From Muribaculaceae bacterium (lineage in GTDB: Bacteria; Bacteroidota; Bacteroidia; Bacteroidales; Muribaculaceae), in NCBI GenBank assembly GCA_017624155.1, contig JAGANS010000071.1, forward strand, positions 1 to 56,640: DNA of 56,640 nucleotides, in the 5' to 3' direction. The notes beneath the pieces are model-generated. The model had not been told where the DNA came from and did not search any database. It worked only from the letters and a program-made list of their open reading frames with translations. Both the position numbers and the translations under genes were made by a program. Within the stretch, counting starts at the first letter, position 1. Every line of letters begins with the position of its first letter. Below, one piece after another: positions 5,019 to 56,640 of the stretch.

Positions 5019-5050
5019 CGGCGAATATCAAAGTCTGTTCGACAATAATC

Positions 5051-38936: not shown

Positions 38937-41900
38937 GTGAAGGTCACCACATTTATATACAGACTTTTTAAAACAGCAGCATGGGTCCTTATGGGGATCG
39001 TGCTGCTGGCCGGTGCGCTTATTACTCTGCTCTACGCATCATGGAGCCAGGAGTACATACGGCAGTATGCCATAAAGATGATGAATCAGGGAGATATGAA
39101 GATACAGCTCGAATCGCTCGAACTCAGCTTTCCTCTCGACGTCCATCTCACCGGCCTCGCCCTCGACATGCCCGGGCAAAGTATCGCCGCCGGCCGCCTC
39201 GACGCCTCGGTAGGCCTGCTCCCGCTCCTGCGCGGCCATGCCATGATATCGCAGGCCGACCTCACCGACGGAGCATTTGTCATCGGCACACCCGATTCGG
39301 CCATGTACATGACCATCAAAGGCCGCACGATAACACTCAGCAATGCCGACGTTGCTCTGTCCTCGATGGACATCAGCCTCAACGAAGGCATCATAAAGGG
39401 CGGCCGCGTGTCTATGACTCTGAATCCCGACACAACCGCCGCCGACACTGCCGCAACCCCTCCCACACGCATGAGTATCGCCGTGCATCGTCTGATACTC
39501 GACGACTTCGCCTACAACATGCGCATGCTGCCCGCTATAGACTCGCTCGGCGCAGCCATCCCGGCTGCCACTGCGACCGACATCAGCATCGACCTGTACC
39601 GGCAGGCCATCTGTCTCAACTCATTTACCGGCTCCGGACTTGATGTATCATATATCGCACCCGACTCGGCCACAATAGCGGCAACACCCGTCATACCCAC
39701 CGACACCGCCGCTCCGTCAACCGCCCCGTGGACTATCACCATCGACTCTGTCGGATTCGACCGTTCACAAGCTCTCTACACCACCCGCGGGGTCAAACCG
39801 ATGCCGGGCCTCGACTTCACCTACATACAGGTCGACTCGCTCGACCTGCGCGTGAAAGACTTCTACAACCGGGCCTCGACGGTACGTGTGCCGCTGCAGG
39901 TCCACGGCACCGAGCGCTGCGGTGTGACGATCGACGCCTCGGGTACGCTCGATGTCGACTCGCTCGGCACAGGCCTCAACGGATTTAACGTATCGACCCC
40001 CGATGCCACCGGAATCGTGTTTGACGCTCTCATAGGCATGGGCGACATGACCACCGAGCCATCCACGCCCCTGCGGCTGAATCTCGACGGCCACCTTGCC
40101 CCCCGCGACGCTTTGAAGATGTTTCCGGCCTTCGCGCCATACCTGCTTACTCTGCCCCGCAACTCGCCGATACACGCCCGCGCCGATATCGACGGCACAG
40201 CAGGAGACCTCGACATCTCTGAGCTGAGCATCGTAGTCAACGGCATGGCACGTCTCGGAGCCAAGGGACGCTTGCTGAGTGTATTCGCCCCCCCGCGTAT
40301 CGGCGGCAGCCTGCAACTGAGCGGCGAGCTGTTGGACTTCAACCGGCTCAAGCCCGCATTCTTCGACAAATCATCCTCAGCCGGCTTCGATATCCCGCGC
40401 ACCGCCTTCACCGGCAATATCAACATGAATTCAGGCAATATCCGCGGCAAACTCGAGGGCCGCACCGGACAAGGCAAGATAAACCTCGCCGCCGACTGGC
40501 AGTCGCGCCTCGAGAACTATACCCTGCACCTCGTAGCCGACCGCTTCCCTGTCAACGCCTTCATGCCCCTGCTCGGCGTCGGCGAGATCAGCGCCACCCT
40601 CGATGCCGACGGTCACGGCTACAACCCATTTGCCAAGACCATGCGCCTTGACGCCACCCTCGACGTCACCAAGGCCATCTATCAGAAATACGACTACGCC
40701 GACATCTCCGCCAACGCACATTTGGCCGACGGCCACGCCGATATACGCCTCGAATCAAAGAATCCCAACGCGGTTCTTACCCTCGATGCCGACGGCAACC
40801 TCGACGGCGACACATATAGCTGGACAGCATCGCTCGACGGCCGTCACATCGACCTGCAGGCACTGGGGCTTTCGCCCACAAAGGCCGTTCTCGCCACCAC
40901 CCTCCACGCCACAGCGGCCATCACACCAAAAGACAACGAGATCGGCGCCAAGCTAACCCTTAACTCACTAACATACGACACCGACCCCGGCACAACAGTT
41001 CTTAAAAACATCGTGGCACGCCTCAATGCCAACGACTCGGTTACCAACATCTCGGCAGGCAATGGCGACCTGTACGCATTCCTGTCGTCGGAATCATCGC
41101 TTGACACTATCATGGCCCGCATGACCGGCCTCTCGGGCGTAATCGACAATGAAATCGCTACACGCACTATCAATGTGGAGCGGATACAGCAGGCCCTGCC
41201 ACCGTTCAACCTCGACATAACCGCAGGCAGCAACAACCTTATCACCGACATGCTTGCCGACAGCAAAACAACTTTCAGCTCACTGCATATCACCGCGGCC
41301 AACGACTCGTCGCTGTCGCTGAGCGCTGCCCTGCTCGGACTCGGCACACCTTCGATGCGGCTCGACACCATAACATTCGATCTCGCGCAGTATGCCGACA
41401 AGCTGATATTCGACGGGCGGGTGGAGAACCGGCCCGGCACATTCGACGAGTGGGCACATGTACGCCTCGACGGATACATGGCCGACAATACACTCGGCAT
41501 ACAGATCAACCAGCAGAACATCCAGGGCAAGGAAGGCTACGACCTGGGGCTTAAAGCCGAACTCAACGACTCCACTCTGCGCCTGATGCTCGATCCCGTC
41601 GATCCCACCATCGCCTACATGCCCTGGACCGTCAACGACGACAACTTCGTCACATGGTCGTTCGCTCACAAACATCTCGACGCCAACCTGCACATGCACT
41701 CCGACAAGTCATCGCTGGCGATATACACCGACCACGTCGAGGGTGACGACGACCATCAGGAAGCCCTCGTCGTCAACATCTCCGACATCAACATCTCCGA
41801 CTGGATCAGACTCAACCCATTCGCACCGCCCATAACCGGAAAATTGTCAGCCGACATTCAGGTGAGCGGCGAAGGCACCGACATCAACGGCGACGGCACC

Positions 41901-43739
41901 ATCACCCTCTCCGACTTCTTCTACGACCGACAGAAGGTAGGCGACATCCGTACAGACCTCAAAGTGAGCACTGACCTCGCAGGCCGTATACGCGCGGGTG
42001 CCGACCTTATGATCGACGGGCAGAAGACAATCACTCTGGCAGGCGCGCTCAACGATTCCACAGCCGGTTCGCCCCTGTCGATGGATCTGTCGGTGATACA
42101 TCTTCCTCTGCGCGTTGCCAACCCGTTCATAGGCACCGCAGCATCACTTAGCGGAGTTCTCAACGGCTCAATGGACGTATCCGGCTCGGCCACATCGCCA
42201 CGTCTCGACGGCTGGCTGCAACTCGACTCCGCAGCCATGCGCCTGGCCATGACCGGCACATCATATACGTTCAATAATGTAAAGATTCCGGTCGATTCAA
42301 GCCTTGTGCGGTTTACCGACTTCGCTATCAGAGGTACCAATGACAACCCGCTCACAGTCAACGGTACCGTCGACATACACAACTTCGCCGATCCTGACAT
42401 AAACCTGCATCTCAGGGCCGCCAACATGCAGATATGCAACACCCGCCGCGCATCCAAGGGTGCCGACATATACGGCAAAGGCTTCATCAACCTCAACGCC
42501 GACATACGCGGCAACATGAAATTCATGTCGGTCAACGCCGGCCTCACCATTCTTCCGGGCACCAATATCACTTATGTGATGACCAATGCCGAGAGCGCTA
42601 TCACCAACAAGGCCAACGACGACATGGTGAAATTCGTTAACTTCGCCGACACAGCCGCCGTACAACAGGCCGACAGCATCAGCCAGTCGCAACTCGCCAT
42701 GCTTATCGAGGCCACCCTGACCATACAGACCGGCTCAACCATCAATGTGGATCTGTCGTCCAACGGCCGCGACCGCGTGAGCATACAGCCCAACGGTACT
42801 GTCGACTTCTCCATGCAGCCCTTCGGCGAGCCGCGTCTCACCGGACGCATCAACATTCCAAAAGGATTCGTGCGATATACACCACCCGTATTGTCCGAGA
42901 AACTGTTCAACTTCGAGAACAACTCGTATGTGGCCTTCAACGGCGACATAATGAACCCGCAGCTCAATATACATGCCATCGACGTGCTAAGAGCCAACGT
43001 GACACAATCGGGACAGAACTCCCGTCTGGTCGACTTCGACGTACATCTCAACGTCACCGGCACACTGTCCAACATGAACGTGGGATTTGACCTCAGCACC
43101 GACGACGACATCACCGTAGCCAACGAATTGCAGTCGATGAGCGCCGAGCAGCGCGCCAACCAGGCCATGAACATGCTGCTCTACAACGTATATACCGGTC
43201 CCGGCACACGCGGCGACTCCAATCTGTCGGGCAACGCCCTCTATTCATTCCTCTCGTCGCAGCTCAACAACTGGGCCGCCAGCAATATCAAGGGCGTCGA
43301 CCTTACATTCGGCATCGACCAGTACGACCGCACCATCGGCGGCAGCACATCGCAGACCACCAGCTACAGCTATCAGGTATCCAAATCGCTGTTCAACGAC
43401 CGCTTCAAAATCGTGGTCGGCGGCAACTACTCCACCGACGCCAACGCCGACGAGAACTTCTCGCAGAACCTCATCAAGGACATATCGTTTGAATACTTCA
43501 TCAATAAGGCACAGACGATGTATGTGCGCCTGTTCCGCCACACGGGCTACGAATCGATTCTCGAAGGCGAGATAACCCGCACAGGCGTGGGCTTTGTATA
43601 CAAGCGCAAGCTCAACCGGCTGCGCGACCTGTTCCGCTTCCGCAGGTATCGCCGCCGGCAGGACCAGACGGCCTCGCCCGATGTGACCACGAATACAGAA
43701 ACGAACCTTAAACCCGCCGGTAATGAAAGCTCCAAATAA
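38937..43739 (+). CDS. tamB: TamB/DUF490-family envelope assembly protein
   Basis: 1600 residues, starting at GTG. An N-terminal inner-membrane helix (about 8-30) is followed by a very long periplasmic region of repeated amphipathic beta strands (AsmA/TamB beta-taco) and a C-terminal DUF490/TamB domain (about 1150-1560) with LSGVLNGSMDVSGSATSP and the closing SFEYFINKAQTMYVRLFRHTGYESILEGEITRTGVG segment. TamB-like proteins bridge the inner and outer membranes and carry phospholipids or assist outer-membrane protein assembly. It overlaps tamL by 17 nt, so the two are translationally coupled partners. Confidence 0.92.
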   Translation: MKVTTFIYRLFKTAAWVLMGIVLLAGALITLLYASWSQEYIRQYAIKMMNQGDMKIQLESLELSFPLDVHLTGLALDMPGQSIAAGRLDASVGLLPLLRGHAMISQADLTDGAFVIGTPDSAMYMTIKGRTITLSNADVALSSMDISLNEGIIKGGRVSMTLNPDTTAADTAATPPTRMSIAVHRLILDDFAYNMRMLPAIDSLGAAIPAATATDISIDLYRQAICLNSFTGSGLDVSYIAPDSATIAATPVIPTDTAAPSTAPWTITIDSVGFDRSQALYTTRGVKPMPGLDFTYIQVDSLDLRVKDFYNRASTVRVPLQVHGTERCGVTIDASGTLDVDSLGTGLNGFNVSTPDATGIVFDALIGMGDMTTEPSTPLRLNLDGHLAPRDALKMFPAFAPYLLTLPRNSPIHARADIDGTAGDLDISELSIVVNGMARLGAKGRLLSVFAPPRIGGSLQLSGELLDFNRLKPAFFDKSSSAGFDIPRTAFTGNINMNSGNIRGKLEGRTGQGKINLAADWQSRLENYTLHLVADRFPVNAFMPLLGVGEISATLDADGHGYNPFAKTMRLDATLDVTKAIYQKYDYADISANAHLADGHADIRLESKNPNAVLTLDADGNLDGDTYSWTASLDGRHIDLQALGLSPTKAVLATTLHATAAITPKDNEIGAKLTLNSLTYDTDPGTTVLKNIVARLNANDSVTNISAGNGDLYAFLSSESSLDTIMARMTGLSGVIDNEIATRTINVERIQQALPPFNLDITAGSNNLITDMLADSKTTFSSLHITAANDSSLSLSAALLGLGTPSMRLDTITFDLAQYADKLIFDGRVENRPGTFDEWAHVRLDGYMADNTLGIQINQQNIQGKEGYDLGLKAELNDSTLRLMLDPVDPTIAYMPWTVNDDNFVTWSFAHKHLDANLHMHSDKSSLAIYTDHVEGDDDHQEALVVNISDINISDWIRLNPFAPPITGKLSADIQVSGEGTDINGDGTITLSDFFYDRQKVGDIRTDLKVSTDLAGRIRAGADLMIDGQKTITLAGALNDSTAGSPLSMDLSVIHLPLRVANPFIGTAASLSGVLNGSMDVSGSATSPRLDGWLQLDSAAMRLAMTGTSYTFNNVKIPVDSSLVRFTDFAIRGTNDNPLTVNGTVDIHNFADPDINLHLRAANMQICNTRRASKGADIYGKGFINLNADIRGNMKFMSVNAGLTILPGTNITYVMTNAESAITNKANDDMVKFVNFADTAAVQQADSISQSQLAMLIEATLTIQTGSTINVDLSSNGRDRVSIQPNGTVDFSMQPFGEPRLTGRINIPKGFVRYTPPVLSEKLFNFENNSYVAFNGDIMNPQLNIHAIDVLRANVTQSGQNSRLVDFDVHLNVTGTLSNMNVGFDLSTDDDITVANELQSMSAEQRANQAMNMLLYNVYTGPGTRGDSNLSGNALYSFLSSQLNNWAASNIKGVDLTFGIDQYDRTIGGSTSQTTSYSYQVSKSLFNDRFKIVVGGNYSTDANADENFSQNLIKDISFEYFINKAQTMYVRLFRHTGYESILEGEITRTGVGFVYKRKLNRLRDLFRFRRYRRRQDQTASPDVTTNTETNLKPAGNESSK

Positions 43740-46023
43740 ACTGATGCTACTCGCAGCAGCCATCGCGACCCTGCTCCTGGCAGCCTGCTCCACCACGCGC
43801 CGTGTGCCCGAGGGCGATCACCTGTACACCGGCCTCAAGGGCGTGGATTACAAATATTCCACCGACACCACGGCACACATCCCCGACGAGGTTCAGGAGG
43901 CCATATTCACATCGGTCGACGTGGCGCCCAACAACTACTGGAAGCTCGTGCGCTGGCGCTACCCATTCCCGCTGGGACTGTGGGTATACAACAACTGGTC
44001 GAATCCGCCCAAAGGGCTCAAGCACTGGCTGTACGAGAAGCTCGTGGCCGAGCCCGTGCTGGTATCGGACGTCCGTCCCGAGGTACGCACACACATGATA
44101 GAACAGATACTCGACAACAACGGATACTTCCGCGGCAAGGCGTCCTACGAGCTTCTTCAGGCCCGCAATCCCAAAAAGGCCAAGATACGCTATGACGTCA
44201 CTCCCGGCCCGGCGTTCCTGCTTGATACCGTCGAGATGCTCGGCGACTCCACCCACCTGGGAATGCTCATCGACTCACTGGCATCGCGCGATCCGTATCT
44301 GCGCGCAGGCTCTCGCTATTGCACGGATTCCCTGTCCACCGCCCGCAACCGCATCACCAACTCTCTGCGCAACCGCGGCTACTATTTCTTCCGTCCCGAC
44401 TACATACAGTATCTCGCCGATTCGATACAGCACCCGGGCAGCGTGATGCTGCGGCTCGATCTTGCCAATGACATGCCGCACTTCACTTCGCAGCGCTTCC
44501 GTACGGGCAAGGTGACCATGGTGGTGAACCGTTACCGCGGACGACAGCGGCCCGACACGATACAGATAAAGCCCGGGGTAGAACTTGTGCAGATGATGCC
44601 GTCGAAATTCCGCCGCAAGATAGTGGATGAGTGCGTGACATTCCGCCCGGGCAGCATCTTTGCCGTACGTAACATGGACTTCACACAGACCTTGCTGTCG
44701 CGACTCGGCATATTCCGCTCTATCGACATACAGGCCATCCCCGACTCCACCGCGATAAGCCCTACCCTCGACGTTCTCGTCAACACCACTCTCGACCAGC
44801 CACTGGAAGCATCCGTCGAGGTAAACGTATCGTCTAAATCCAACTCATATCTCGGGCCGGGACTTACCCTCGGCGTAACCAACAACAACATATTCGGTGG
44901 CGGCGAACAGTTGAGCGTCCAGCTCACCGGTACATACGAATGGCAGACCGGACGCCGTACCCGCGGAGGTATATTCAACTCATACGAAGCCGGTATCACA
45001 GGATCTCTGGCTTTCCCGAGGCTGCTCGCGCCCAAGTTCATACCGCGCAGTCAGTGGCAGCTCAACTGGACACGCTTCCAGCTCAACGCCGACCTGCTCA
45101 ACCGCCCACACTACTTCCGCATGGCACAGTTCAATGCCTCCATGAGCTACGACTGGCGCATCCGGCGCCACGTGTCGCAGACTTTCACGCCGCTGAAACT
45201 CACATACACCAAGCTTATCAACACCACAGCCGAGTTCGACTCGATAATGGCCGTCAACCCTGCCATCGCACTCAGTTTCCAGAGCCAGTTCATTCCGCAG
45301 ATGATGTATTCGTATACTTACGACCGGCAGTTCGACCGCGACAACGCCCTCAACTGGTCGTTCACGGTACAGGAAGCCGGCAACATATTCTGGGCCATAT
45401 ATCGCGCCTGCGGCAAGAAAGGCGAGAAAGAACTGTTCGGCACACCTTTTTCTCAATTTATAAAAGGACAGACCCAGCTGGTATATAGCCGGCGGCTGTG
45501 GGGCGATCATCACCTTGTAAGCCGTGTGGCCGTGGGCGCCGAGCACGCATACGGCAATTCGGCCGAAGTCCCATACGCCGAGCAATTCTACTGCGGGGGC
45601 GCCAACTCGGTACGCGCGTTTACCGTGCGCAGTATTGGCCCTGGTTCATATCATGCGCCGCAAGGCACACCCGACGATTATTTCGACCAGACGGGTACAT
45701 TCAAGTTCGAGGCCAATCTGGAATACCGCTTCCCGATAGCAGGCGCCCTGCACGGCGCTGTATTCCTCGACGCAGGAAACGTATGGCTCCTCAAAGACGA
45801 TGCCGCACGCCCGGGCGGCAAACTCAAGGGCTCGACATTCCTGCGCGACCTCGCTACGGGTACAGGCGCAGGCCTTCGCCTCGACATCTCCATGCTGGTG
45901 ATCCGCGCTGACCTCGGCATCGGCATACATGCACCATACAACACCGGCCACCGCGGATATTACAACATGGAGTCGTTCGGCAAGTCGCTGGCCTTTCACC
46001 TGGCGATCGGATACCCGTTCTGA
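43723..46023 (+). CDS. tamL: TamL: lipoprotein TamA/BamA-family outer-membrane protein
   Basis: 766 residues. Lipoprotein signal with Cys22 in LLAAC, unlike proteobacterial TamA, which has an ordinary signal peptide. POTRA-like repeats (about 25-380) precede a 16-strand Omp85 barrel (surface antigen D15 domain) with the SVRAFTVRSIGPG motif near 627 and a C-terminal aromatic strand (LAFHLAIGYPF). Omp85 proteins insert proteins or lipids into the outer membrane. Lipidated TamA homologues next to TamB are typical of Bacteroidota. Confidence 0.9.
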   Translation: MKAPNKLMLLAAAIATLLLAACSTTRRVPEGDHLYTGLKGVDYKYSTDTTAHIPDEVQEAIFTSVDVAPNNYWKLVRWRYPFPLGLWVYNNWSNPPKGLKHWLYEKLVAEPVLVSDVRPEVRTHMIEQILDNNGYFRGKASYELLQARNPKKAKIRYDVTPGPAFLLDTVEMLGDSTHLGMLIDSLASRDPYLRAGSRYCTDSLSTARNRITNSLRNRGYYFFRPDYIQYLADSIQHPGSVMLRLDLANDMPHFTSQRFRTGKVTMVVNRYRGRQRPDTIQIKPGVELVQMMPSKFRRKIVDECVTFRPGSIFAVRNMDFTQTLLSRLGIFRSIDIQAIPDSTAISPTLDVLVNTTLDQPLEASVEVNVSSKSNSYLGPGLTLGVTNNNIFGGGEQLSVQLTGTYEWQTGRRTRGGIFNSYEAGITGSLAFPRLLAPKFIPRSQWQLNWTRFQLNADLLNRPHYFRMAQFNASMSYDWRIRRHVSQTFTPLKLTYTKLINTTAEFDSIMAVNPAIALSFQSQFIPQMMYSYTYDRQFDRDNALNWSFTVQEAGNIFWAIYRACGKKGEKELFGTPFSQFIKGQTQLVYSRRLWGDHHLVSRVAVGAEHAYGNSAEVPYAEQFYCGGANSVRAFTVRSIGPGSYHAPQGTPDDYFDQTGTFKFEANLEYRFPIAGALHGAVFLDAGNVWLLKDDAARPGGKLKGSTFLRDLATGTGAGLRLDISMLVIRADLGIGIHAPYNTGHRGYYNMESFGKSLAFHLAIGYPF

Positions 46024-46073: not shown

Positions 46074-47171
46074 ATGCGCTACTGGACAGTCGACCGAATA
46101 ATGCGGCTTGTCATAAGTCTTGCCATAACAGCCGCCTTAGTATGGCTCATACGCTCGCTGAGCAATGTGCTGCTGCCTTTCTTCGTGGCATGTGCCGTGG
46201 CATACCTGCTGCAGCCATTGGTCGGCTTCAACATGCGGCTGATACGAGGCAAGAGCCGGGCGCTCGCCTCGGTACTCACCATAATAGATGTTTCGGCATT
46301 AATCGTAGCAGTGATTTACCTGTTCCTGCCATCGGTGATACGCGATCTCGACATGCTCGGCGATATAATAAAGAGCGTTTCCGACGGCAAACGCCATCTT
46401 CCCGCCTTTTATGTAGGCATAATCGACTTCATCAACCGGTACTTCGACCCCGGACATCTGAAGGCCGTATTCGACGGTTCACACATCGAGGCGCTCATCA
46501 GCAAGGGATCGTCACTGCTCGAGGAATCGCTCGACGTGGTGCTCAACATCCTGTCGTGGCTGCTGACAATAATATATATACTGTTCATACTCATCGATTA
46601 TCCGCAGATATGCCGGGGATTCAAACTCATAATTCCTCACAAATACCGTCCCCGCACCATGGTAGTGGTACACGACGTAGAGAACAGCATGGACCGGTAC
46701 TTCCGCGGTCAGGGCTTCGTGGCTCTATGCGCTATGGTATTCTACTGCATCGGCTTCTCGATGGTGGGGCTGCCGCTGGCCATACCTATGGGCGTGATTG
46801 TCGGCATACTGTACATGATTCCTTACTTCCAATATGTGACTCTGATACCGGTAACGGCCATCTGCTTCATATTCTCACTGGGCGGCGAGGTGGAATTCTT
46901 TACCGAACTCGGGAAGTGCGGACTGGTGTATGTGATAAGCCAGTGCATATGCGACTATGTAATCACGCCGCATGTCATGGGTAAAGAAATGGGTATGAAT
47001 CCGGCTATCATACTGCTGTCGCTGTCGGTATGGGGCAGCCTGCTGGGCATTATAGGTATGATAATAGCGCTCCCGGTAACAGCCATCATCATGACTTACT
47101 ATGAGCGCTATATCAGTAATCCGGCTCCAAGATCAGCAAGGCCCGGAGACAGTGAAGTCAGTTCTTCCTGA
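46074..47171 (+). CDS. AI-2E/PerM-family membrane transporter
   Basis: 365 residues with about eight hydrophobic segments. N-terminal pair of helices (about 10-50), a soluble stretch (about 85-150), then the C-terminal membrane core with FRGQGFVALCAMVFYCIGFSMVGLPLAIPMGVIVGILYMIPYFQY and GKEMGMNPAIILLSLSVWGSLLGIIGMIIALPVTAI, both hallmarks of the family. Members are linked to autoinducer-2 export or ion/peptide transport, and the substrate here is unknown. Its end overlaps the end of the convergent PP2C gene by 14 nt. Confidence 0.88.
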   Translation: MRYWTVDRIMRLVISLAITAALVWLIRSLSNVLLPFFVACAVAYLLQPLVGFNMRLIRGKSRALASVLTIIDVSALIVAVIYLFLPSVIRDLDMLGDIIKSVSDGKRHLPAFYVGIIDFINRYFDPGHLKAVFDGSHIEALISKGSSLLEESLDVVLNILSWLLTIIYILFILIDYPQICRGFKLIIPHKYRPRTMVVVHDVENSMDRYFRGQGFVALCAMVFYCIGFSMVGLPLAIPMGVIVGILYMIPYFQYVTLIPVTAICFIFSLGGEVEFFTELGKCGLVYVISQCICDYVITPHVMGKEMGMNPAIILLSLSVWGSLLGIIGMIIALPVTAIIMTYYERYISNPAPRSARPGDSEVSSS

Positions 47172-48333
47172 ACAGAACGTTGAACGCTTCCTTTATCAGG
47201 CTGCCGGCAGTCTTGGCACGAGCCTGTACAGAATCGTCAGGAGCGGCGGGAACTTCAGGGACGGCGGCATTCGCTACCTGTTCTTTCATCGCCTCAGGTA
47301 TCGGCGGCGGCATTATTTCGTCGGATATCGGAGCCTCATTGCCCTCATCGCTGTCGATTGTGAAGCCTATCGCGGCCTCGACAGGCACATTCACAGGGCA
47401 TGGCGACGGCCTTGCGGGTGCGTCGGCATCCGGCAGGCCGGTGCCGCAGGCATCCGAGCGCAATGATGCCGGGTCTATTTCAGGAATGCGTTCTTCGGGA
47501 GTTTCCTCCGTGGACTTCTTTTCAGGCTCTTTTTCCGGTTCCTCCACACGGGCTGGCTCGGGTGTTGACACCTCGTCTTCGGGCGGCATAGCGACATTAA
47601 GCAGCACTACGGTACAGTTGTCGCGGCCACCGGCGGCAATGGCAGCGTCGACAAGAGCCCGGGCATTGCCGCCGGCAGCAAGGATGCTGTCAATCTCATC
47701 GTCGGATATCATGTCGCACAGGCCGTCGGAACATATCACGTATGTATCGCCGTCGATCACCGGCAGTTCCTCCGTCAGGCATGTAACGTCGACAAATGCC
47801 TCGGGAATACCGATAGCGTTGTAGATGAGATTGGAAGCAACGGTCGGGTCGCCGAGGCGCTCGCGCTCCGAGTGATCGGTGCTTATCTGACGCAGCACAT
47901 CATAGCGGCGGCGGTACACTCGGCTGTCGCCGGTATTGAGCATAAATTCATAGGGCCCGTAAGTGAAGATACCGGTGAGCGTTGTGCCCATGCGTGCAAG
48001 CTCGGGATCGGTGGCGGCACGCGATATCACGGCAGCGTTGTTGCTCCTGAACCAATCCTTCACGGCCACTTTCACGGCATCGGCATCCAGCCCGGCAGGC
48101 AGGTCGGTAAGAAATTCATCGAAGGAGCGCAGAGTCATCTCCGAGGCTATCTCGCCGCCGCCATAGCCGCCCATGCCGTCGGCCACCAGGGCCGAGAAAC
48201 GCGGGCGCTGTTTCATCGGGACCATCGATCGCTGAGCATCGTCGCGCAGGAACGCTCCGAATACCAGGGCCATATCTTCATTATTGGTGCGTACCGAGCC
48301 TACGTGGCTCACTGCATCGTATTTTATTTTCAT
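47158..48333 (-). CDS. PP2C-family Ser/Thr protein phosphatase with long acidic/proline tail
   Basis: 391 residues. PP2C/Stp1 domain about 1-250 with all metal-binding motifs: Glu19-Asp20 near the N-terminus, ADGMGG (51-56), GDSR (135-138), SDG (202-204) and GRDN (236-239). Residues about 251-391 are a disordered-looking acidic, proline-rich tail (EEPEKEPEKKSTEE and similar) ending in a short amphipathic helix. The tail is far longer than in Stp1-type enzymes and offers many Ser/Thr-Pro sites. It is last in the kinase-AAA-FHA-PP2C operon, 12 nt after FHA, and is expected to remove phosphates placed by the kinase. Confidence 0.93.
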   Translation of the reverse strand: MKIKYDAVSHVGSVRTNNEDMALVFGAFLRDDAQRSMVPMKQRPRFSALVADGMGGYGGGEIASEMTLRSFDEFLTDLPAGLDADAVKVAVKDWFRSNNAAVISRAATDPELARMGTTLTGIFTYGPYEFMLNTGDSRVYRRRYDVLRQISTDHSERERLGDPTVASNLIYNAIGIPEAFVDVTCLTEELPVIDGDTYVICSDGLCDMISDDEIDSILAAGGNARALVDAAIAAGGRDNCTVVLLNVAMPPEDEVSTPEPARVEEPEKEPEKKSTEETPEERIPEIDPASLRSDACGTGLPDADAPARPSPCPVNVPVEAAIGFTIDSDEGNEAPISDEIMPPPIPEAMKEQVANAAVPEVPAAPDDSVQARAKTAGSLIKEAFNVLFRKN

Positions 48334-48345
48334 CGGGGAGAGGTT

Positions 48346-48993
48346 TTATTCAACATTAAAATCGTATACGGTGGCAAATCGAATCACATCACCGGGGCGG
48401 ATGGCCACAGGTACCGATACCCGGCAGGGCATGCCGTTGACAGCGGTGCCGTTGCGCGAGCCTATGTCGGTGATTGTCCAGCGCATACCGTCGAAGTCGA
48501 GCCGCGCATGTGTCCCGGATATATACTGGAACGTAGCCAGCTGGGCTGTATACGGGCCGTTGCCGCGGCCGATTATCGCACCGGGCTGCATCATCAGGGT
48601 GACACCCATAGCCGGACAAGTGATACGCACCGGCTGCTGTTGTGCCGGCGGGATAGTAGTGGGGCGCGGACCGGGAGGGGTAACGGGCTGCGGATCCGGA
48701 GCGACGGGACGCGGGCCGGGTGATACCGGCTGAGGCCCGGGGTTAACAGGCTGAGGGCCGGGAGTGACCGGTTGTGGCCCGGGATTTACGGGCTGAGGGC
48801 CGGGAGCTGCCTGTCCGCTCTGCGTACCGGCCTGTCCGGCAGGCACAGTAGCCACACCGCATTTCATGCAGAACTTTCCCTTGCGGAAACTGCCGCACTT
48901 GGGGCATTTGAGCAACTCCGCGCCACATTGGTCGCAGAATATGCTGTCATTATCTATATCGGCCCCGCAGTGGGGGCATGGAGTCTGTGTCAT
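48346..48993 (-). CDS. Zinc-ribbon and FHA-domain protein with PGPQPV linker repeats
   Basis: 215 residues. Two N-terminal zinc ribbons: Cys6/Cys9/Cys20/Cys23 and Cys30/Cys33/Cys42/Cys45. A linker contains six 7-residue proline-rich units (64-105). The C-terminal FHA domain (about 122-215) has IIGRG (140-144), a SGTH segment (159-162) in place of the usual S-R-x-H, and DIGSRNGTAVNG (176-187). FHA domains bind phosphothreonine peptides, so this is the likely reader of the neighbouring kinase. It starts 1 nt after the AAA+ gene stop. The linker would let the reader swing between partners. Confidence 0.92.
   Translation of the reverse strand: MTQTPCPHCGADIDNDSIFCDQCGAELLKCPKCGSFRKGKFCMKCGVATVPAGQAGTQSGQAAPGPQPVNPGPQPVTPGPQPVNPGPQPVSPGPRPVAPDPQPVTPPGPRPTTIPPAQQQPVRITCPAMGVTLMMQPGAIIGRGNGPYTAQLATFQYISGTHARLDFDGMRWTITDIGSRNGTAVNGMPCRVSVPVAIRPGDVIRFATVYDFNVE
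48679..48804 (-). repeat. 21-bp coding tandem repeats (PGPQPVx) in the FHA protein
   Basis: Six near-identical 21-bp units encode 7-residue proline-rich repeats between the zinc ribbons and the FHA domain. Such arrays expand and contract easily, so linker length may vary among strains. Confidence 0.85.
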
Positions 48994-48994
48994 A

Positions 48995-51900
48995 TCAATC
49001 GATTTGCATGTCGGGGGCCTCGATTACAAAGGCCCGGTTGGTATCGAAGTCGGGCATACGCATCTCGGCGCGCAGACGGCGCCCCTGGTTGAGGATAACC
49101 TTGTCCACATAGTTGCGGGCCTCGCGTGCGTTGGCAAAATTGGCACTGCGGGCATTGACAAGGCGGGTGAAATAGAACAGCATGGCCTGACGGGCATCGT
49201 CGGTGATGCGCAGATTCTTCTTGGTGAATATGCCCTCGGCTATGTGGGTGAGCTCGGCAGCATTGTAGTCGGCAAAGTTGATCGTTGTGGTGAATCGCGA
49301 CGACAGTCCCGAATTGGAGTCGAGCCACTGGCTCATCTCGCGGGGATAGCCGGCAGCGATACAGATAAACTTGTTCTTGTAGTTCTCCATCACCTGCAGC
49401 AGCTCGGCCACAGCTTCGGTGCCGTAGCCCACGTTGCCGTCGCCCTGTGTGATGCTGTAAGCCTCGTCGATGAACACCACGCCGCCCATACCGCGCATCA
49501 GTGCGGCGTGGGTCTTGGGCGCTGTCTCGCCCACGTGGACGCCCTTGAGGTCCTTGGCCGACAGCTCCACCACCTTGTTGGACGGCAGCAGCCCCAGCGA
49601 ATAAAATATGTCGCCCATGATGCGGGCAACGGTAGTCTTGCCCGTGCCGGGATTGCCGAGGAACAGATAGTGGTCGAGGTTGATGCCGCCGCGCACGCCG
49701 GTGGCCTGCTCGCGCATCTGCATGGCCTGCAGGGTGTCGGCCATGTCGCGCACGGCCTTCTTGACCTCGGCGAGGCCTTCGAGGTGATCAAGGCGACCCA
49801 TTATCTCGTCGATATCGAGCTTCTTGGGAGCGTCGTATGGAATATCGGCTGCCTCGATGGTATAGAGGGCGTCCTCGTTATAGTCGTCGGCCATATCGCT
49901 GAGGCGCTCCGACTGGCGCTCAAGGGTTTTCTCAAACAGCTTTACCATTTCGCCTGCGTTGCCGAATTTCTCGTCCTTGGCACTGACCATCTCCTCGACT
50001 TTGCGCTGCAACAGGTCGTATGCCTCATCGGTAAGCGTGCAGCCGTAGGTGCGGGCCTGCAGAGCATAGATGGTGAGCAGATCATCTACCGAATAATCTG
50101 GAATATGGATGCTGTGGGTAAAGCGGCGCTGCAGACCTGGGTTGGCGTTGCGGATAAACTCGTCCATCTTGTCCTTGTAGCCGGCTATGACAGTTATGAA
50201 CTGTCCGGCACGCTCGCTCATGCATGTCATCAGGGCATCGACGGCCTCGGCGCCGGTACTGTCGACCGTGCCGGGCTGACCGACAGGCATCAGGTTGTAT
50301 GCCTCGTCGATGAAGAGTATGCCGCCCATGGCATCGTCGACGGCCTTCTGCATGTTCTTGCCGGCCGAGTTGGCGTAGGAGTCGAGGATATCCTTGCGTT
50401 CCTTAATTATCACCTTGTCGGTTGGTATGGCACCTATGGCCTTGAATACCTTGCCGAGGCGCTTGGCCACGGTGGTCTTGCCCGTACCGGGATTACCGGT
50501 GATTATGATGTGTATGTTGTCGACCATCACCTTGCCGCGACCGGCGGCCATGCGGCGGCGGTTGAGCCGCACACGCTTGGCGATGGTACTTATCTGTTGC
50601 TTGACATCCTCCATGCCTACAAGGTCGTCGAACGAGGCCAGAATATCATCTACGGCCTTCGTAGCGTTCTCGCCCTCGATGTCGCGCATGGTGAGCATTG
50701 GTTCGGATACAGGCGTACCCTCGGCGGCTGCCCGGTCGAGGCGTTCCTTCATGCGCCCGCGGGCCTCGTCGAGCACGTTGCGCACGTTGCGTGCGTTGCC
50801 GAATCGGGCCGTGCGCGTGGCATACATCTTGTCGAAGAAAGCTCCGATCTGCGCGTCGGCCTCGGCGTCGAGTTTCACGGGGTCGTCGCCGCCGGCGGCC
50901 ATATTGCGGAAGATCTGGGTCAGCTCGGGACCGGTGTAGTCGCGGAATGTTATAGTCTTGTTGAATCGGCTCTGCAGGCCGGGATTGGCGCCGAGCATGC
51001 GCTGCATCTCCACCGGGTAGCCGGCCAGCAGACACACAAACTTGCCGCGCAGGTCCTCACAGTCCTTAAGCAAGGTGGCAATCGCCTGGTTGCCGTAGGA
51101 GTCGTTCTCGTCGCGGCACAGCTCGTAAGCCTCGTCGATGAAGAGAACGCCGCCCATGGCGTCGTTGACCGCCTTGCGCACCAGCTTGGGAGTGTCACCC
51201 ACATACTGCGACACCAGCTTGCCGCGGTCGGTCTCCACAAGGTGGCCGCTTGGCAGGGCGCCCATGGCACTGAGGGCCTCGGCAAAGAGACGCGCCATGG
51301 TAGTCTTGCCGGTGCCGGGATTGCCGACGAATACGAAGTGGCTCTTCACCGAGCCGGCTGCGGCAGCGTCGCCTCCGCGCTTGCGGGCATCCTCCACACC
51401 CAGGGCTATAAGCCTGATCTGCTCCTTGATGTCCTCGACACCGACATATTTGTCGAAGTCGCGCATCACGTCGTCGAGGGTCTTGGGAATGTATTCCTTG
51501 CCTACCACCATTGCCGGGGTGATTATGCCGTCGGTCGCTCCCGCATTGCAGTATGCCTCGTAGATGCGGTCGGCGAGGTTGTGGGCGTAGTGGCCGTTGG
51601 GGAATGTATCGGGATTGCTGCGCTTGGCATGAGTGATGACACGGCCTATCTTGGCGCGCACACCGGCCTCGAGGGGCTTGCTGTGCCATACTTGTTCGAG
51701 CCGCCGCGCGCATATCTCCACTAAGTCGGGGATATCGGGTGCGTTGAGGCTGATCATCTCCTTGATTTTGGCACGTGCCGAGGGATTGTTCTCAAAGAAT
51801 TTGAGCAGGTCGTCGTCGCCGAGGAATATAACCACCGGCTTCTCGGGGTCGGGACCCCAGTCGTCGCAGTAGGCGAGAATCTTCTCAAGTTCGCACAGAC

Positions 51901-52363
51901 TGTCGGCACGTGTGGTGGGCGAGTGCTTCTGCGCGTCGTCGATTATAAGTACATTGCCGCCGACAGGCTTGATGTTGTCGGCGAGTTTTTCCACGAATTT
52001 CGCATAGTCGATCGCTTTCACCACCGTGGGAACGGGCTTCTTGATAATGCCTGCGGCAGCCAGGGCGGCCGTAAGAGCCTCGGCGGTGACATTTTTGCCC
52101 GTGCCGGGAGCACCGGTTATGGCAAAGCACAGATCGCGGCGCATCTCGGTGCCGCGGGCACGGCCCTGCGCCGCTATATTGGAGGCGCTGGTGAGCACGT
52201 CCTTGAGCAGGGCCACCGCGGTATCTTTGCCCACGAGCGAGTCGAGCGGCGAGCCACCGCTTGTCGCCGTAGCGGCAGTCGCTGCGGCCGCCACAGGCGT
52301 ACCGCACCACTTGCAGTACTTGGCCGACGGCCGGTTGGGTTTATGGCATTTGGAGCAGTCCAT
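48995..52363 (-). CDS. Zinc-ribbon protein with four AAA+ domains (CbbX/SpoVK type)
   Basis: 1122 residues. A zinc ribbon (Cys3, Cys6, Cys17, Cys20) is followed by four AAA+ domains. AAA1 (about 40-290) has Walker A GAPGTGKN (84-91) but a weak Walker B (VLIIDDAQK, 138-146) and no NPGL-RF arginine-finger box. AAA2 has GNPGTGKTT (347-355) and LFIDEAY (407-413); AAA3 GNPGTGKTT (623-631) and LFIDEAY (683-689); AAA4 GNPGTGKTT (903-911) and VFIDEAY (963-969). Each of AAA2-4 carries an N-[PS]-GL-xx-RF box. CbbX/SpoVK ATPases remodel protein complexes, and fusing several in one chain suggests a built-in partial ring. The ATG directly abuts the kinase stop codon. Confidence 0.92.
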   Translation of the reverse strand: MDCSKCHKPNRPSAKYCKWCGTPVAAAATAATATSGGSPLDSLVGKDTAVALLKDVLTSASNIAAQGRARGTEMRRDLCFAITGAPGTGKNVTAEALTAALAAAGIIKKPVPTVVKAIDYAKFVEKLADNIKPVGGNVLIIDDAQKHSPTTRADSLCELEKILAYCDDWGPDPEKPVVIFLGDDDLLKFFENNPSARAKIKEMISLNAPDIPDLVEICARRLEQVWHSKPLEAGVRAKIGRVITHAKRSNPDTFPNGHYAHNLADRIYEAYCNAGATDGIITPAMVVGKEYIPKTLDDVMRDFDKYVGVEDIKEQIRLIALGVEDARKRGGDAAAAGSVKSHFVFVGNPGTGKTTMARLFAEALSAMGALPSGHLVETDRGKLVSQYVGDTPKLVRKAVNDAMGGVLFIDEAYELCRDENDSYGNQAIATLLKDCEDLRGKFVCLLAGYPVEMQRMLGANPGLQSRFNKTITFRDYTGPELTQIFRNMAAGGDDPVKLDAEADAQIGAFFDKMYATRTARFGNARNVRNVLDEARGRMKERLDRAAAEGTPVSEPMLTMRDIEGENATKAVDDILASFDDLVGMEDVKQQISTIAKRVRLNRRRMAAGRGKVMVDNIHIIITGNPGTGKTTVAKRLGKVFKAIGAIPTDKVIIKERKDILDSYANSAGKNMQKAVDDAMGGILFIDEAYNLMPVGQPGTVDSTGAEAVDALMTCMSERAGQFITVIAGYKDKMDEFIRNANPGLQRRFTHSIHIPDYSVDDLLTIYALQARTYGCTLTDEAYDLLQRKVEEMVSAKDEKFGNAGEMVKLFEKTLERQSERLSDMADDYNEDALYTIEAADIPYDAPKKLDIDEIMGRLDHLEGLAEVKKAVRDMADTLQAMQMREQATGVRGGINLDHYLFLGNPGTGKTTVARIMGDIFYSLGLLPSNKVVELSAKDLKGVHVGETAPKTHAALMRGMGGVVFIDEAYSITQGDGNVGYGTEAVAELLQVMENYKNKFICIAAGYPREMSQWLDSNSGLSSRFTTTINFADYNAAELTHIAEGIFTKKNLRITDDARQAMLFYFTRLVNARSANFANAREARNYVDKVILNQGRRLRAEMRMPDFDTNRAFVIEAPDMQID

Positions 52364-55300
52364 TTATTTTACTTTTACAAGTTCCACATCAAAAACGAGA
52401 TCGGCGTCGGGCGGTATACTTCCTTCCACACCCTTCTCGCCGTAAGCCATGTCGGCCGGTATATACAGCATGGCGTGGCCGCCCTCGCGCAGCATCTTCA
52501 CACCCTCGGCAAAACCGGGAATCACATTCTTCAGATTAAACTCCACCGGTTCGACCGCCTCGTCAAACACGGTGCCGTCGGGAAGCATACCCTTGTATTT
52601 CACCGACACCGTAGAGTTGTCTTTGGGCGAACGGCCCGAGCCGACTGATATCAGTCGGTAGCGCAGCCCGCTGGGAGCTATCAGATAACCGCCGTAAGGC
52701 GCCACTACCTGATTTTTCGACAGATAGAAGTTGTGGCGCGTGCCCTTGAGGTTGTTGACGTATTCGCCGGTCATGTACACCTTGTTGCCGTCGCCGTAAT
52801 ATACATCGGCGGCCAGGGTGATGCTGCTGCTCTCGGTTGAGTGCATTGTCAGCTTGCCGGTATCACCGTCGTAGCCGTCAACGACAAGGTTGATTGTCAT
52901 GGGTGTGGAGTATTCTATTCGCAGTTTGCCTTTGATTGTGCCGTCGTCGGTCTTGGACATAAAGAGTGTGGCCGGGCGCTCATGGAATTCGCCCTTGAAC
53001 GTGCCGGGGAGCTGGTTGGGATGAGCCGGCTCGGCTGCCGTCTCGACGAGTTCCTGCTTGTCGACAGCGTTTACAGAATCGGTGAGCAGCACGGTGATAA
53101 CCAGCGTTATTACCGTAAGTCCTATCATGCACCATGCAGCCACACCCGAGCTCTTCGACTGATCCTTGGCCAGCTGCGTAGACTTCTGGAATATCGATGA
53201 GGGATCGGGGTTGGACGAGCCGAAGGTTGCCGATGTGGTGCCGAATGCCTCGCACATCTTGTATATGTCGGCCTGTTCCACAAGGTCGTCATACTTGGCC
53301 TTGTTGGGAATATACTTGTCGGATGTCTGGTTGAAGAACTTCACGGCACACCATACGGCCGCAGCACCGAGAAGCAATACGAGCAGGAACGGGGCGAAGC
53401 CGCTGAGCAGTCCGAATATCCATGTCGGTATCCAGTAACCGGCCAAAGCGCCGATAATGGCGCCTATTATACCGCCCGACAGGCCGGCAAGACCGCCGAC
53501 TATGGCGAGCAGCACCGCCACAAACGTGCCGATGGCCTCGAAGGCCTTGATAACGGTGGCTGAGCCCTCGGTAAGTGTCACGGCCATCATCCATATCAGC
53601 AGCACGAGCATCGGCAGCAGACACAGTAGCGTTATCAGGGTGCGCTTGCGCTTGACACCGGCCCAGGCCTTGTCGCGCGCCTCGATGGCATTGTCCACGC
53701 GGGCTATCGAGGCCATGGCCTTCGACATGCCGGGATATGCCGGGGCATATTGCTGCAGGAAGTTGAAGTAGCCGCGCAGCTCGGTGACACTGTACGTGTT
53801 CTTGATTCCTTCGTGGAAGAAAAGCGCAAGGAACTGCGGCAGGGCCGAATCCTTGATGAGCTGATTGCGCTCCTCCTGACTCACGCTCTTCACCTGAGCC
53901 AGCGTCGTGGCCTTGACATTAGCCTTTGGGAAGGTGAAATAGGGAGTATAACCGAGATATTGTATCACCTTCCATGCCGCGGTGAACTTGGTATATGGCG
54001 CTGCCGGGTGTGCCTTCCTGTTGGCCGGAAGGTCGACGATGCGGGCGATGCCGTCGGCCTGCGCGGTCATCTTGCGCGCCTCGAGATACTGGTGAAGCTG
54101 CGACTTGCGGAAGTTGTCAACACCATCGGTAAGCATGGTGAATATGTTGGGCGCGGAGCTGTTCATCATATAAGTCCTCGACTCGGTGGACATCTCAAGG
54201 TTGAGGGCCCGGCCGATGTCGGCGGCTGAATATATATAGTGTTCCTTACCCTTATCGGTCGAGCAGTTGAGCGACACGTTGGGCATGAGAGCATAGAACA
54301 TATACCATCCGCGATTCTTGGCGTTGCTTCCGGCCTCCTTCACAAGTTTTTCGAGCACGGGGGCGAGCTTGGCGTCCTCCTTGCAGCGGTTGTTGAGCAG
54401 CCAGGTGGGGAAGTGCACGCGGCTCAGACATTCCATCGTGAGCGGTGTCACCCCGTGGTCGTGTATCTCTTTGGCAAATTCGTCCATCGAGTAGACGTAA
54501 TACCACTTGTTGTCGTCCTTGCGCTGTACCGAGAACGGCTTGGCATCGGAGCCGAGGCGATAGTACACGTCCCACAGATATTGGTTGTTGCTCTTGGCGA
54601 GCAGTCCGGGATAGGTGCGGGCTATCTCGGCCCATTTTCCGCCCTTGGCCGCGAGGAAGCTCCACACCTGATGGTCGGGGTCACTGAGTTCCTTTGAGGC
54701 TCCGATCCATGAGTCGAGGAAGCATGCGGCCAGATCGCTGTCGGTGCGCAGGGCCTTGCCCTTGGGACTGTAGAGCGGGAACGACGGGTCGAGCGCAAGG
54801 CACAGTTTATACAGACGGTTGATATTCTTGTCGAGTTCGTCGGCCCCGAATTTGAACATCGGCCGGTATTTGCGCTCGATTTCTGCGGCATTGGGACCCA
54901 GCGACAACATGTATGTCCACAGCATGTGGTTGTCCATCGCCAGCTGTGACGCATAGGTACGCCGTTCGCCCCACAACTCGGCAGCGATAGCCTTCTGATC
55001 GCGCAACTCCTTGCCGCCGATGGAATAGAAGGGCAGCGACGGGTCGAGCTTCTTGACAAGAGCATATATACCGTGCTGGCCGTCCGACACTATTATCGGG
55101 CGGTACTTGTCGGGCAACGCGCGCATCGCCGAATCGCCACGTATCGTCATGTAGACCCACAGAGCGCTGCCACGCGAGGCAAGATCCTTGATATATGCCT
55201 GACGGTTAGTCCATACCTCTGCCGCTATTTCCTTGGCGGTGACACACTTATTTCCTTTGACACCAAAGAAAGGCGACGAAGGGTCGAGCAGCAGAGCCGC

Positions 55301-56640
55301 TGCATACACACCGCCGCCCTGTTCCTCGGGACGCGGATATTTGACATTGACTATATCGTCTATCTCGATGGCGAGCGTGGGACGTATACCCTGAAGCGCA
55401 CTCTTGGCCAGGCCCTTGTAGAGGAATTTCTTGGCAAACTCTACGTCACCGAGCATCAGCGCGGCCAGTTCCTTAGGCGAGCGCGCCACCTGCTTCTTCA
55501 CATCGTTGAACACTACATGGAAATCGCCTGTAGCGTGCTCGGCTTCGGCGGCCGAACCGGTCTTGAGTGTCTCGCCCTTGAACCAGCGCTGCACGTCATC
55601 GAATCCTGCACGCGATCCGTCGGAGAATTCCAGCAGGCGCTCGAGCAGCGAGGCCAGATGATCGCTTATATTGAGTTTGGAACGCAACTTGCCGATAACA
55701 TTATTGTTGCGTTTCAGTCGGTCGAGCTCGGCCAGGTCGTTGGCCGGGAACATCTTGTAGAAGTTGTCGACGCCCATCCACAGAGCCAGCAGGGTCATGC
55801 CCATCGAGTAGTAGTCGGTGGCGCGGCCCACATAGGTATTGCGGTCGTTGGAACTGATGGCTCCCTCAGGCGACACGAAGTAGCTCGACTTGGCGGCATC
55901 GACCTTGACCGGATTGTCGCCGCTGATCTCGCGTGCGATACCAAAGTCGATCACGACAAATTCCTTGCGCTCCGGCCCGGTGAACAGGAAATTCTCGGGC
56001 TTGATGTCGCGGTGGATAAATCCCAGCTCGTGACATTGCCTGATGGCAAAGGCCATGCGCATGGCCACTTCCTTGAAGCGCGTCTCCGACCCGCGCAGCG
56101 TCATGTCGGCCAGCGAGCCGTTGGGAGCATAATCCATTATCTCATAGTCGAACTGCATGCCGCGCGCATCGCCCCACTTGCCGTGGTCGCGGAGACTCAC
56201 AAGGAAACCGCCGCGGGCATTCTTCACCTTCTCGAGGATATTATGATTGGGCCCGTGGTTAGGAATATACAGCTTGAGCACAAATTTGCGGCCGCCGTTC
56301 TCCACCACAAGTATACGGGCCTCGCCCGAACGCGTCTTGAGCGTGCGGCGGCTCTCTTCCTTGTCTACCTTGTAGCGTATGCCGTTGATCACATACTCGT
56401 CGAGGACGGGAATGTCACTGATTGCGCCGGGAGCCGACGGACGTGCGCCGCCGGGAACAGCTGTGGGCGCGGCACCCGGAACGGCCGTAGGCGCTGCACC
56501 CGGGACCGCGGTGGGAGGTGCGCCGGGTACTGATGTCGGAGGTGCACCGGGTACTGATGTCGGAGGTGCGCCGGGTACTGATGTCGGAGGTGCACCGGGT
56601 ACTGATGTGGGCGCGGCACCCGGAACTGATGTGGGTGGCG
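52364..56640 (-). CDS. Membrane Ser/Thr kinase with tandem repeats and C-terminal FKBP prolyl isomerase (5' end outside window)
   Basis: The frame is open to the window edge, so the protein exceeds 1420 residues. Numbering is from the GTG at 56392, which is not the true start. A proline-rich repeat linker precedes an Hanks-type kinase (about 5-275): Lys40 (FVLKLY), HRDIKPEN (127-134), DFG (149-151) and a SPEGA-type APE motif. The Gly-rich loop is poor. Four degenerate ~80-residue repeats span about 361-660. Hydrophobic segments lie at 919-938, 951-1020 (probably three passes) and 1085-1104. A beta-rich region follows, then an FKBP domain (1240-1342) with Tyr1266, Phe1276-Asp1277, Val1290-Ile1291 and Tyr1317. 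Five passes would put kinase inside and FKBP in the periplasm. Confidence 0.92.
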   Translation of the reverse strand, partial: PPTSVPGAAPTSVPGAPPTSVPGAPPTSVPGAPPTSVPGAPPTAVPGAAPTAVPGAAPTAVPGGARPSAPGAISDIPVLDEYVINGIRYKVDKEESRRTLKTRSGEARILVVENGGRKFVLKLYIPNHGPNHNILEKVKNARGGFLVSLRDHGKWGDARGMQFDYEIMDYAPNGSLADMTLRGSETRFKEVAMRMAFAIRQCHELGFIHRDIKPENFLFTGPERKEFVVIDFGIAREISGDNPVKVDAAKSSYFVSPEGAISSNDRNTYVGRATDYYSMGMTLLALWMGVDNFYKMFPANDLAELDRLKRNNNVIGKLRSKLNISDHLASLLERLLEFSDGSRAGFDDVQRWFKGETLKTGSAAEAEHATGDFHVVFNDVKKQVARSPKELAALMLGDVEFAKKFLYKGLAKSALQGIRPTLAIEIDDIVNVKYPRPEEQGGGVYAAALLLDPSSPFFGVKGNKCVTAKEIAAEVWTNRQAYIKDLASRGSALWVYMTIRGDSAMRALPDKYRPIIVSDGQHGIYALVKKLDPSLPFYSIGGKELRDQKAIAAELWGERRTYASQLAMDNHMLWTYMLSLGPNAAEIERKYRPMFKFGADELDKNINRLYKLCLALDPSFPLYSPKGKALRTDSDLAACFLDSWIGASKELSDPDHQVWSFLAAKGGKWAEIARTYPGLLAKSNNQYLWDVYYRLGSDAKPFSVQRKDDNKWYYVYSMDEFAKEIHDHGVTPLTMECLSRVHFPTWLLNNRCKEDAKLAPVLEKLVKEAGSNAKNRGWYMFYALMPNVSLNCSTDKGKEHYIYSAADIGRALNLEMSTESRTYMMNSSAPNIFTMLTDGVDNFRKSQLHQYLEARKMTAQADGIARIVDLPANRKAHPAAPYTKFTAAWKVIQYLGYTPYFTFPKANVKATTLAQVKSVSQEERNQLIKDSALPQFLALFFHEGIKNTYSVTELRGYFNFLQQYAPAYPGMSKAMASIARVDNAIEARDKAWAGVKRKRTLITLLCLLPMLVLLIWMMAVTLTEGSATVIKAFEAIGTFVAVLLAIVGGLAGLSGGIIGAIIGALAGYWIPTWIFGLLSGFAPFLLVLLLGAAAVWCAVKFFNQTSDKYIPNKAKYDDLVEQADIYKMCEAFGTTSATFGSSNPDPSSIFQKSTQLAKDQSKSSGVAAWCMIGLTVITLVITVLLTDSVNAVDKQELVETAAEPAHPNQLPGTFKGEFHERPATLFMSKTDDGTIKGKLRIEYSTPMTINLVVDGYDGDTGKLTMHSTESSSITLAADVYYGDGNKVYMTGEYVNNLKGTRHNFYLSKNQVVAPYGGYLIAPSGLRYRLISVGSGRSPKDNSTVSVKYKGMLPDGTVFDEAVEPVEFNLKNVIPGFAEGVKMLREGGHAMLYIPADMAYGEKGVEGSIPPDADLVFDVELVKVK
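56463..56640 (-). repeat. 24-bp coding tandem repeats (8-residue Pro/Gly-rich units) at the window edge
   Basis: At least seven 24-bp units begin at 56463 and run off the window. They encode units such as TSVPGAPP and TAVPGAAP in the kinase frame. The four central units (56511-56606) are almost identical, which points to recent expansion. They form a flexible linker between the kinase and whatever domain lies further N-terminal. Confidence 0.88.

Follow-up and report, generated by a model that had tools for sequence, protein, structure and literature searches.

A kinase, AAA+, FHA and PP2C locus at the end of a contig

The stretch of DNA analysed here (the window; 56,640 bases) is an entire contig, JAGANS010000071.1, of the 97-contig assembly GCA_017624155.1 of a Muribaculaceae bacterium. 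At one end it carries four minus-strand genes for a PP2C-type phosphatase, a zinc-ribbon protein with an FHA domain, a multi-module AAA+ protein and a membrane Ser/Thr kinase, separated in that order by gaps of 12, 1 and 0 nucleotides (nt) in the list of open reading frames (ORFs). An earlier note, made from the letters alone, had described four genes packed in this way, and both the packing and the domain calls are confirmed by the ORF coordinates and by Pfam (Table 1). We show below that these genes belong to a conserved five-gene operon, and we propose, with a probability of roughly 60%, that the operon encodes an inner-membrane phospho-switch in which a docking array on the kinase, the FHA protein and a CbbX-type AAA+ protein would work together and be reset by the PP2C.

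Table 1. Features of the operon in the window
Feature	Position	Strand	Evidence
PP2C-type Ser/Thr phosphatase, final operon gene	47158..48333	-	Pfam PP2C_2, 27.3 bits (cut-off 24)
Double zinc ribbon, proline-rich linker and FHA domain	48346..48993	-	Pfam FHA, 50 bits; DZR, 34 bits
Zinc ribbon and four CbbX/SpoVK/EccA-type AAA+ modules, the first degenerate	48995..52363	-	Pfam, NCBIfam, Walker motifs
Membrane Ser/Thr kinase, 5' end past the contig edge	52364..56638	-	Pfam Pkinase, 84 bits; FKBP_C, 84 bits
Kinase N-terminal Thr array, eight Thr at 8-residue steps (PPTSVPGA/APTAVPGA)	56405..56638	-	Sequence; shuffle test, p<0.01
Kinase catalytic domain; K122, HRD 209-211, DFG 231-233 (open-frame residue numbers)	55559..56350	-	Residue alignment
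Five transmembrane-like segments, kinase residues 1002-1184	53087..53635	-	Hydropathy scan
C-terminal FKBP domain of the kinase, local addition	52367..52696	-	Pfam FKBP_C

Since the window is a whole contig whose edge falls inside the kinase gene, the start of the kinase and any gene preceding it are absent from it. What remains of the kinase is matched by relatives along its full length in sequence searches.

The window genes belong to a five-gene operon

In these relatives, the gene preceding the kinase encodes a multi-zinc-ribbon protein, which we named X. The earlier note had pointed upstream of the kinase for a further zinc-ribbon gene, whose presence it would count as decisive, and this is where X stands; the window genes are thus part of a five-gene operon whose first gene lies past the contig end. 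X combines several CxxC ribbons with a helical-looking middle, and its C-terminal CxxC...H...C motif is invariant across the 58 X proteins aligned. Pfam recognises the ribbons only and assigns no fold to the C-terminal part. No copy of X turned up in the rest of the window's assembly, as expected from the assembly break.

A search for X across 84,980 species' genomes yielded 73 loci, labelled Bacteroidales or Bacteroidia, and their gene content was scored with profiles of the five proteins. X, kinase, AAA+, FHA and PP2C occur together in 57 of them, and 56 of these complete loci have the order X-kinase-AAA+-FHA-PP2C on one strand; in the remaining one (L074), the kinase comes last. Median gaps along the operon are 7, 2, 4.5 and -4 nt. 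Seven loci have X-kinase-AAA+-FHA with no PP2C found (L052, L059, L098, L100, L101, L102 and L107), and nine are interrupted by contig ends. The proposal that kinase, FHA, PP2C and AAA+ form a unit therefore holds, the genes being conserved together and not scattered among loci found through X, a way of sampling in which FHA or PP2C genes dispersed apart from X would have been missed. We found no description of this combination within the openly licensed literature, in agreement with the earlier note.

The distribution of the operon is patchy. X is present in 8/49 genomes of the genus and, at E<=1e-12, in 6/395 genomes of the phylum. Among 393 genomes of the order there are four near-full-length matches, and 71 match at E 1e-3, mostly via the ribbons alone. 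X also occurs in 6/197 genomes of another class; five of these carry the complete five-gene set at the X locus, and in the sixth the sequence ends after the kinase. Carriage by mobile elements was considered and set aside: X had no match in plasmid or phage records, and the kinase had no relative in viral contigs.

Kinases with intact active sites carry arrays of threonines

We compared 72 kinases, i.e., that of the window and those of 71 loci. All 72 have the HRD Asp with the Lys and Asn that follow, as well as the DFG Asp, and 71 retain the VAIK Lys. The five loci whose kinase has lost the DFG Gly, all Prevotella-type (L098, L100, L101, L102 and L107), are also without PP2C, which would be expected of a kinase and a phosphatase that work as a pair. 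Their threonine arrays are short.

Ahead of the catalytic domain lie tandem units centred on Thr. The unit itself varies, from PPTSVPGA in the window to GTATAPQ, KTAVAPQ, DKTLRPG, GTIRPG, HATGKA, SDTA and others elsewhere. When tested against shuffles of each N-terminus, the arrays were significant (p<0.01) in 56/72 kinases, including that of the window. The arrays comprise 367 repeated Thr units; under a stricter match of the flanks, 16 same-frame units had a residue other than Thr at the centre, none of them Ser. The exception is L067, whose array is entirely of the Ser type (SSLKP), although FHA domains prefer phosphothreonine (pThr).

The FHA protein repeats the motif of its own kinase

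The pThr pocket is well conserved in the 65 FHA proteins compared (Gly, Arg and Ser in 65/65, His in 64/65). With the kinase active-site residues also intact, the pair resembles in these respects, judged by sequence, the kinase-FHA docking circuits exemplified by PknB-GarA and PpkA-Fha.

The linker between the zinc ribbons and the FHA domain often repeats the array motif of the kinase in the same locus: EKTMRPG in L047-L049, DKTVRPG in L053 and L056, HSTGK/R in L078, L086 and L099, and SSLKP in L067. Counting exact 5-mers shared between the array and the other operon proteins proved too strict (2 loci for FHA, null mean 0.6) and was replaced by a position-weighted test, which was adopted after viewing the linker listing of the 5-mer test, with controls handled identically. 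By this test, 17/61 FHA linkers match their own kinase array at p<=0.01 and 24/61 at 0.05; the controls at 0.01 gave 1/67 for X, 1/56 for the PP2C tail, 1/63 for the start of the AAA+ protein and 0/63 for its tail. After clustering the kinases at 50% identity, linkers matched in 10/25 clusters versus 5/130 control tests at p 0.05 (Fisher 3.6e-6). The own array ranks above arrays from different clusters, at a mean percentile of 0.69 (Wilcoxon 1.3e-5, n=61). As a sign of pThr-dependent binding between kinase and FHA protein, this sharing is indirect.

In the other class, the motif is found at the very end of the FHA protein: all five proteins seen have DKTVRI, EKTVRI, DATVRV, EKTIRV or DKTERV as their C-terminus, and their kinases have D/E-[KA]-T-[VI]-R arrays in four cases and a single EKTIH in the fifth. 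The FHA protein of L159 ends in SDATVRV, and the identical string occurs within the kinase array of that locus. The linker of the window contains a proline-rich tandem repeat (48713-48806), in which the kinase motif is absent.

A sceptical view of the arrays is that they are passive low-complexity spacers produced by expansion of DNA repeats, rather than docking sites. The window array is indeed tandem at the DNA level as well, with a 24-base period, and the repeat units differ by lineage. However, the Thr stays constant across lineages while its flanks vary, Ser does not substitute for it, and the motif is shared with the FHA protein, in another class at its C-terminus, and not with X, PP2C or AAA+. 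We therefore consider the spacer explanation unlikely.

A eukaryotic parallel for multivalent docking of this kind is the reading of MDC1 SDT repeats by the FHA domain of NBS1. There, as in the present operon going by its sequences, tandem candidate phospho-sites are paired with an FHA domain; in contrast to MDC1-NBS1, the operon has its array on the kinase itself and the motif recurs in the FHA protein.

A multi-module CbbX-type AAA+ protein and a conserved PP2C

Pfam finds AAA in four stretches of the window's AAA+ protein and AAA_lid_6 in three, and this combination of AAA core and AAA_lid_6 places it in the CbbX/EccA/SpoVK family. The NCBIfam models SpoVK, CbbX and EccA all score above cut-off, with totals summed over the four modules from which a single-function name does not follow. 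Of the four P-loops, the first is degenerate (GKN; DD in place of DE). Across loci, the AAA+ proteins have two to four Walker A motifs per polypeptide under a strict pattern. These multiple motifs and a zinc ribbon set them apart from CbbX, EccA and SpoVK, and no Rubisco or type VII secretion partner is seen in the operon. The N-terminal ribbon (CxxC...CxxC) was read from the sequence and is not among the best 25 of 53 Pfam matches; that of the FHA protein is DZR by Pfam. The earlier observation that both proteins share zinc ribbons is thus borne out.

In the PP2C, the metal-binding and catalytic residues are conserved, with the metal-binding Asp invariant, in 58/58 proteins (57 loci and the window). 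The window's PP2C scores 134 bits against NCBIfam Stp1, which is under the cut-off of that model.

The FKBP domain is not part of the core

Hydropathy analysis gives five transmembrane-like segments in the window kinase and three to six in 70 of the 71 others, with none in the one left; on account of these segments, the C-terminal part of the kinase is likely to lie outside the membrane. The middle of the kinase and a conserved stretch before the FKBP domain (approximately residues 1205-1312) have no known fold by Pfam. A sequence search of solved structures with profiles of the kinase tail and of X returned nothing convincing: the best E value was 0.12, apart from 1.8e-4 to a designed coiled coil.

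The earlier note had suggested, as one option, an envelope protein-folding sensor, with the foldase carried across the membrane by the kinase as the sensing or repair part. The topology is plausible, since the FKBP domain follows the transmembrane-like segments and is possibly periplasmic, and some other loci have linked genes for SH3-like or signal-peptide membrane proteins (9 and 7 loci, respectively). However, the foldase is present in only 1/72 kinases, that of the window, and absent from the other 71, and FKBP was accordingly rejected as a core feature of the operon; the conserved part is the stretch ahead of it. The nearest stand-alone FKBP in the window's genome is 54% identical to the kinase domain, which fits local gain. 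A folding sensor is therefore an unlikely reading of the operon.

Comparison with known phosphorylation systems

The threonine phosphorylation pathway of the type VI secretion system (T6SS), as described in the available text of PMC3953482, consists of PpkA, PppA and Fha. Like the operon, it has a membrane kinase, a PP2C and a pThr-reading FHA protein as one unit, encoded together, and its output is a membrane-linked machine (PMC3953482). These three shared enzyme types are what would speak for the operon as a post-translational T6SS regulator. On the other hand, the CbbX-type AAA+ partner, the zinc-ribbon proteins and the Thr array on the kinase distinguish the operon from that pathway, and no secretion gene is found among its recurring linked genes. 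Furthermore, the sheath family PF05943 is absent from all 45 rows of operon-bearing genomes (which appear to count two genomes twice), in a search whose positive control matched in E. coli; PF17541 is present in 6/45 rows (5 distinct genomes), on other contigs and not in the window's genome. With sheath genes missing from most operon genomes, the T6SS link raised by the earlier note is largely refuted, and we consider such a role very improbable.

The TerY-P triad combines a TerY-type vWA protein with a kinase and a PP2C. The operon resembles TerY-P and other Ter stress systems in its kinase, PP2C and zinc ribbons, and in the TerB-containing proteins linked to it in some loci. Unlike TerY-P, it has a CbbX-type AAA+ protein, X and an FHA protein, and no vWA domain was found in the window proteins or in the representatives of linked genes that were scanned, which do not cover every linked gene. 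Membership of TerY-P was rejected on this ground. What endures of the earlier reading is the conserved kinase-FHA-PP2C-AAA+ unit with a zinc-ribbon gene upstream, while the foldase as a core feature does not.

GAP1-N2 GTPase-centric systems, putative conflict systems, share with the operon a zinc-ribbon kinase next to a PP2C; in contrast to the operon, they are placed in actinobacteria and contain GTPases and vWA proteins (PMC7159879, available text). In that same portion of text, there is no match for TerB, DUF4062, M48 or TerY.

Linked genes and a possible role in conflict

Linked genes were collected as same-strand chains around the 73 loci, with family names taken from scanned representatives. 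The recurring ones are DUF1963 (10 loci), a family ending in MNPxVMFD (9), DUF4062-STAND (9), TerB-Sel1 (7) and M48-TerB (6). Fusions of an M48 peptidase with a TerB-like domain lie directly upstream of X in L089, L091, L095, L104, L109 and L112, TerB being above the Pfam cut-off in L112 and L104 and below it in L091. DUF4062 proteins follow the PP2C with a 4-nt gap in L077, L085, L087, L088 and L093, and precede X in L098, L100, L101 and L102, the L098 copy having a STAND-like NTPase. In L107 (8017-9330), a caspase (C14)-Sel1 repeat protein is encoded upstream of an operon without PP2C. L163 has a 207-residue protein with internal repeats (TGYRID..TGEIKK.GWFT) and no Pfam family between its FHA and AAA+ genes (4637-5260). 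Close to the operon in the window, TamB and Omp85 genes lie on the opposite strand (38937-46023); these do not recur in the neighbour chains of other loci.

Taken together, the recurring linked genes fit a stress or conflict system. The module could accordingly be the signalling core of a system for defence against phages or competitors, with the AAA+ protein arming or releasing variable accessory effectors. The patchy occurrence of X within genus and phylum and the variable partners (DUF4062-STAND, M48-TerB, TerB-Sel1, DUF1963 and, in one locus, caspase-Sel1) argue for this. On the other side, window-type loci lack such accessory genes nearby, X was not found in phage or plasmid records nor the kinase in viral contigs, and PADLOC gave generic matches only (the mad6 and PD-T4-6 kinase models and the IetA and mad8 AAA models), with no listed anti-phage system. 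We regard a defence core as a possibility at clearly less than even odds. It concerns the purpose of the operon and is compatible with the phospho-switch as its mechanism.

A shared C-terminal ending in one branch

Unrelated proteins encoded at some loci end alike, in DDGR[FYW]D[AP][WY] plus one residue. They comprise Sel1/TPR and TerB proteins, a small TerB-linked protein and five PP2Cs. The ending or a near form of it is found on the PP2C in L103, L105, L106, L108 and L110, and also in L058, L069, L077, L085, L091, L093, L095, L096, L104 and L112. Another C-terminal motif, MNP.VMFD (13 ORFs), was set aside as the common feature of one protein family and not a tag. Searching 50 of the 73 operon genomes (L064-L113) gave 17 matches in 16 genomes, all at ORF ends. 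Of these, 14 fall inside operon loci, and the remaining 3 are on different contigs; the reversed pattern gave none. The tag occurs in 0/393 genomes of the order versus 16/50 operon genomes (Fisher 6e-17), a count inflated by linkage and by homology among the Sel1 and TerB proteins, so that the key point is the same ending on the PP2C. It was not found in the window's genome. CbbX acts on a C-terminal tail (PMC5385338, available text), which suggested the idea of tagged AAA+ clients; by this analogy, we speculate that the ending may mark clients of the AAA+ protein.

A proposed phospho-switch

In the switch that we favour, the kinase would phosphorylate its own N-terminal array at the threonines, and in many lineages also the matching motif in its FHA partner. 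The pThr marks would be read by the FHA domain, and FHA proteins would consequently gather on the array and on one another. The zinc ribbons of X, FHA and AAA+ may constitute an assembly module which recruits the CbbX-type AAA+ protein, and the latter would pull on and remodel client proteins. The PP2C would remove the phospho-marks. It is probably the kinase region beyond the membrane that reads the signal, and the operon probably serves in a stress or conflict response.

Several observations weigh against this proposal. The array test was failed by 16/72 kinases, and the array of L067 is all Ser (SSLKP), with a matching Ser motif in its FHA linker. The array of L162 is weak and its FHA protein lacks the motif. 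The FHA linker of the window does not carry the motif of its kinase (position-weighted p 0.985), and 37/61 linkers are not significant at 0.05. L052 and L059 have no PP2C and yet have an ordinary kinase. Finally, assembly through the zinc ribbons is not directly supported.

More tentatively, the assembly might scaffold itself. The kinase would write pThr both on its own multivalent array and on the copy of that motif in the FHA protein. FHA proteins would then connect one array with the next, and with one another head to tail, giving a membrane-attached cluster that loads a ring of the CbbX-type AAA+ protein. In one branch, its clients would bear the C-terminal ending described above and be gripped as CbbX grips the RbcL tail.

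Circuits of kinase, FHA protein and PP2C have mostly been described in the control of secretion and metabolism. The one in this operon appears firmly coupled to an AAA+ remodeller, and the short motif that changes jointly in kinase and reader between lineages may document, in natural sequences, the co-evolution of a phospho-code between bacterial writer and reader. This makes for a prediction that can be tested in gut Bacteroides, e.g., in B. cellulosilyticus DSM 14838 (L049), in which a 2.2 Mb scaffold contains the operon.

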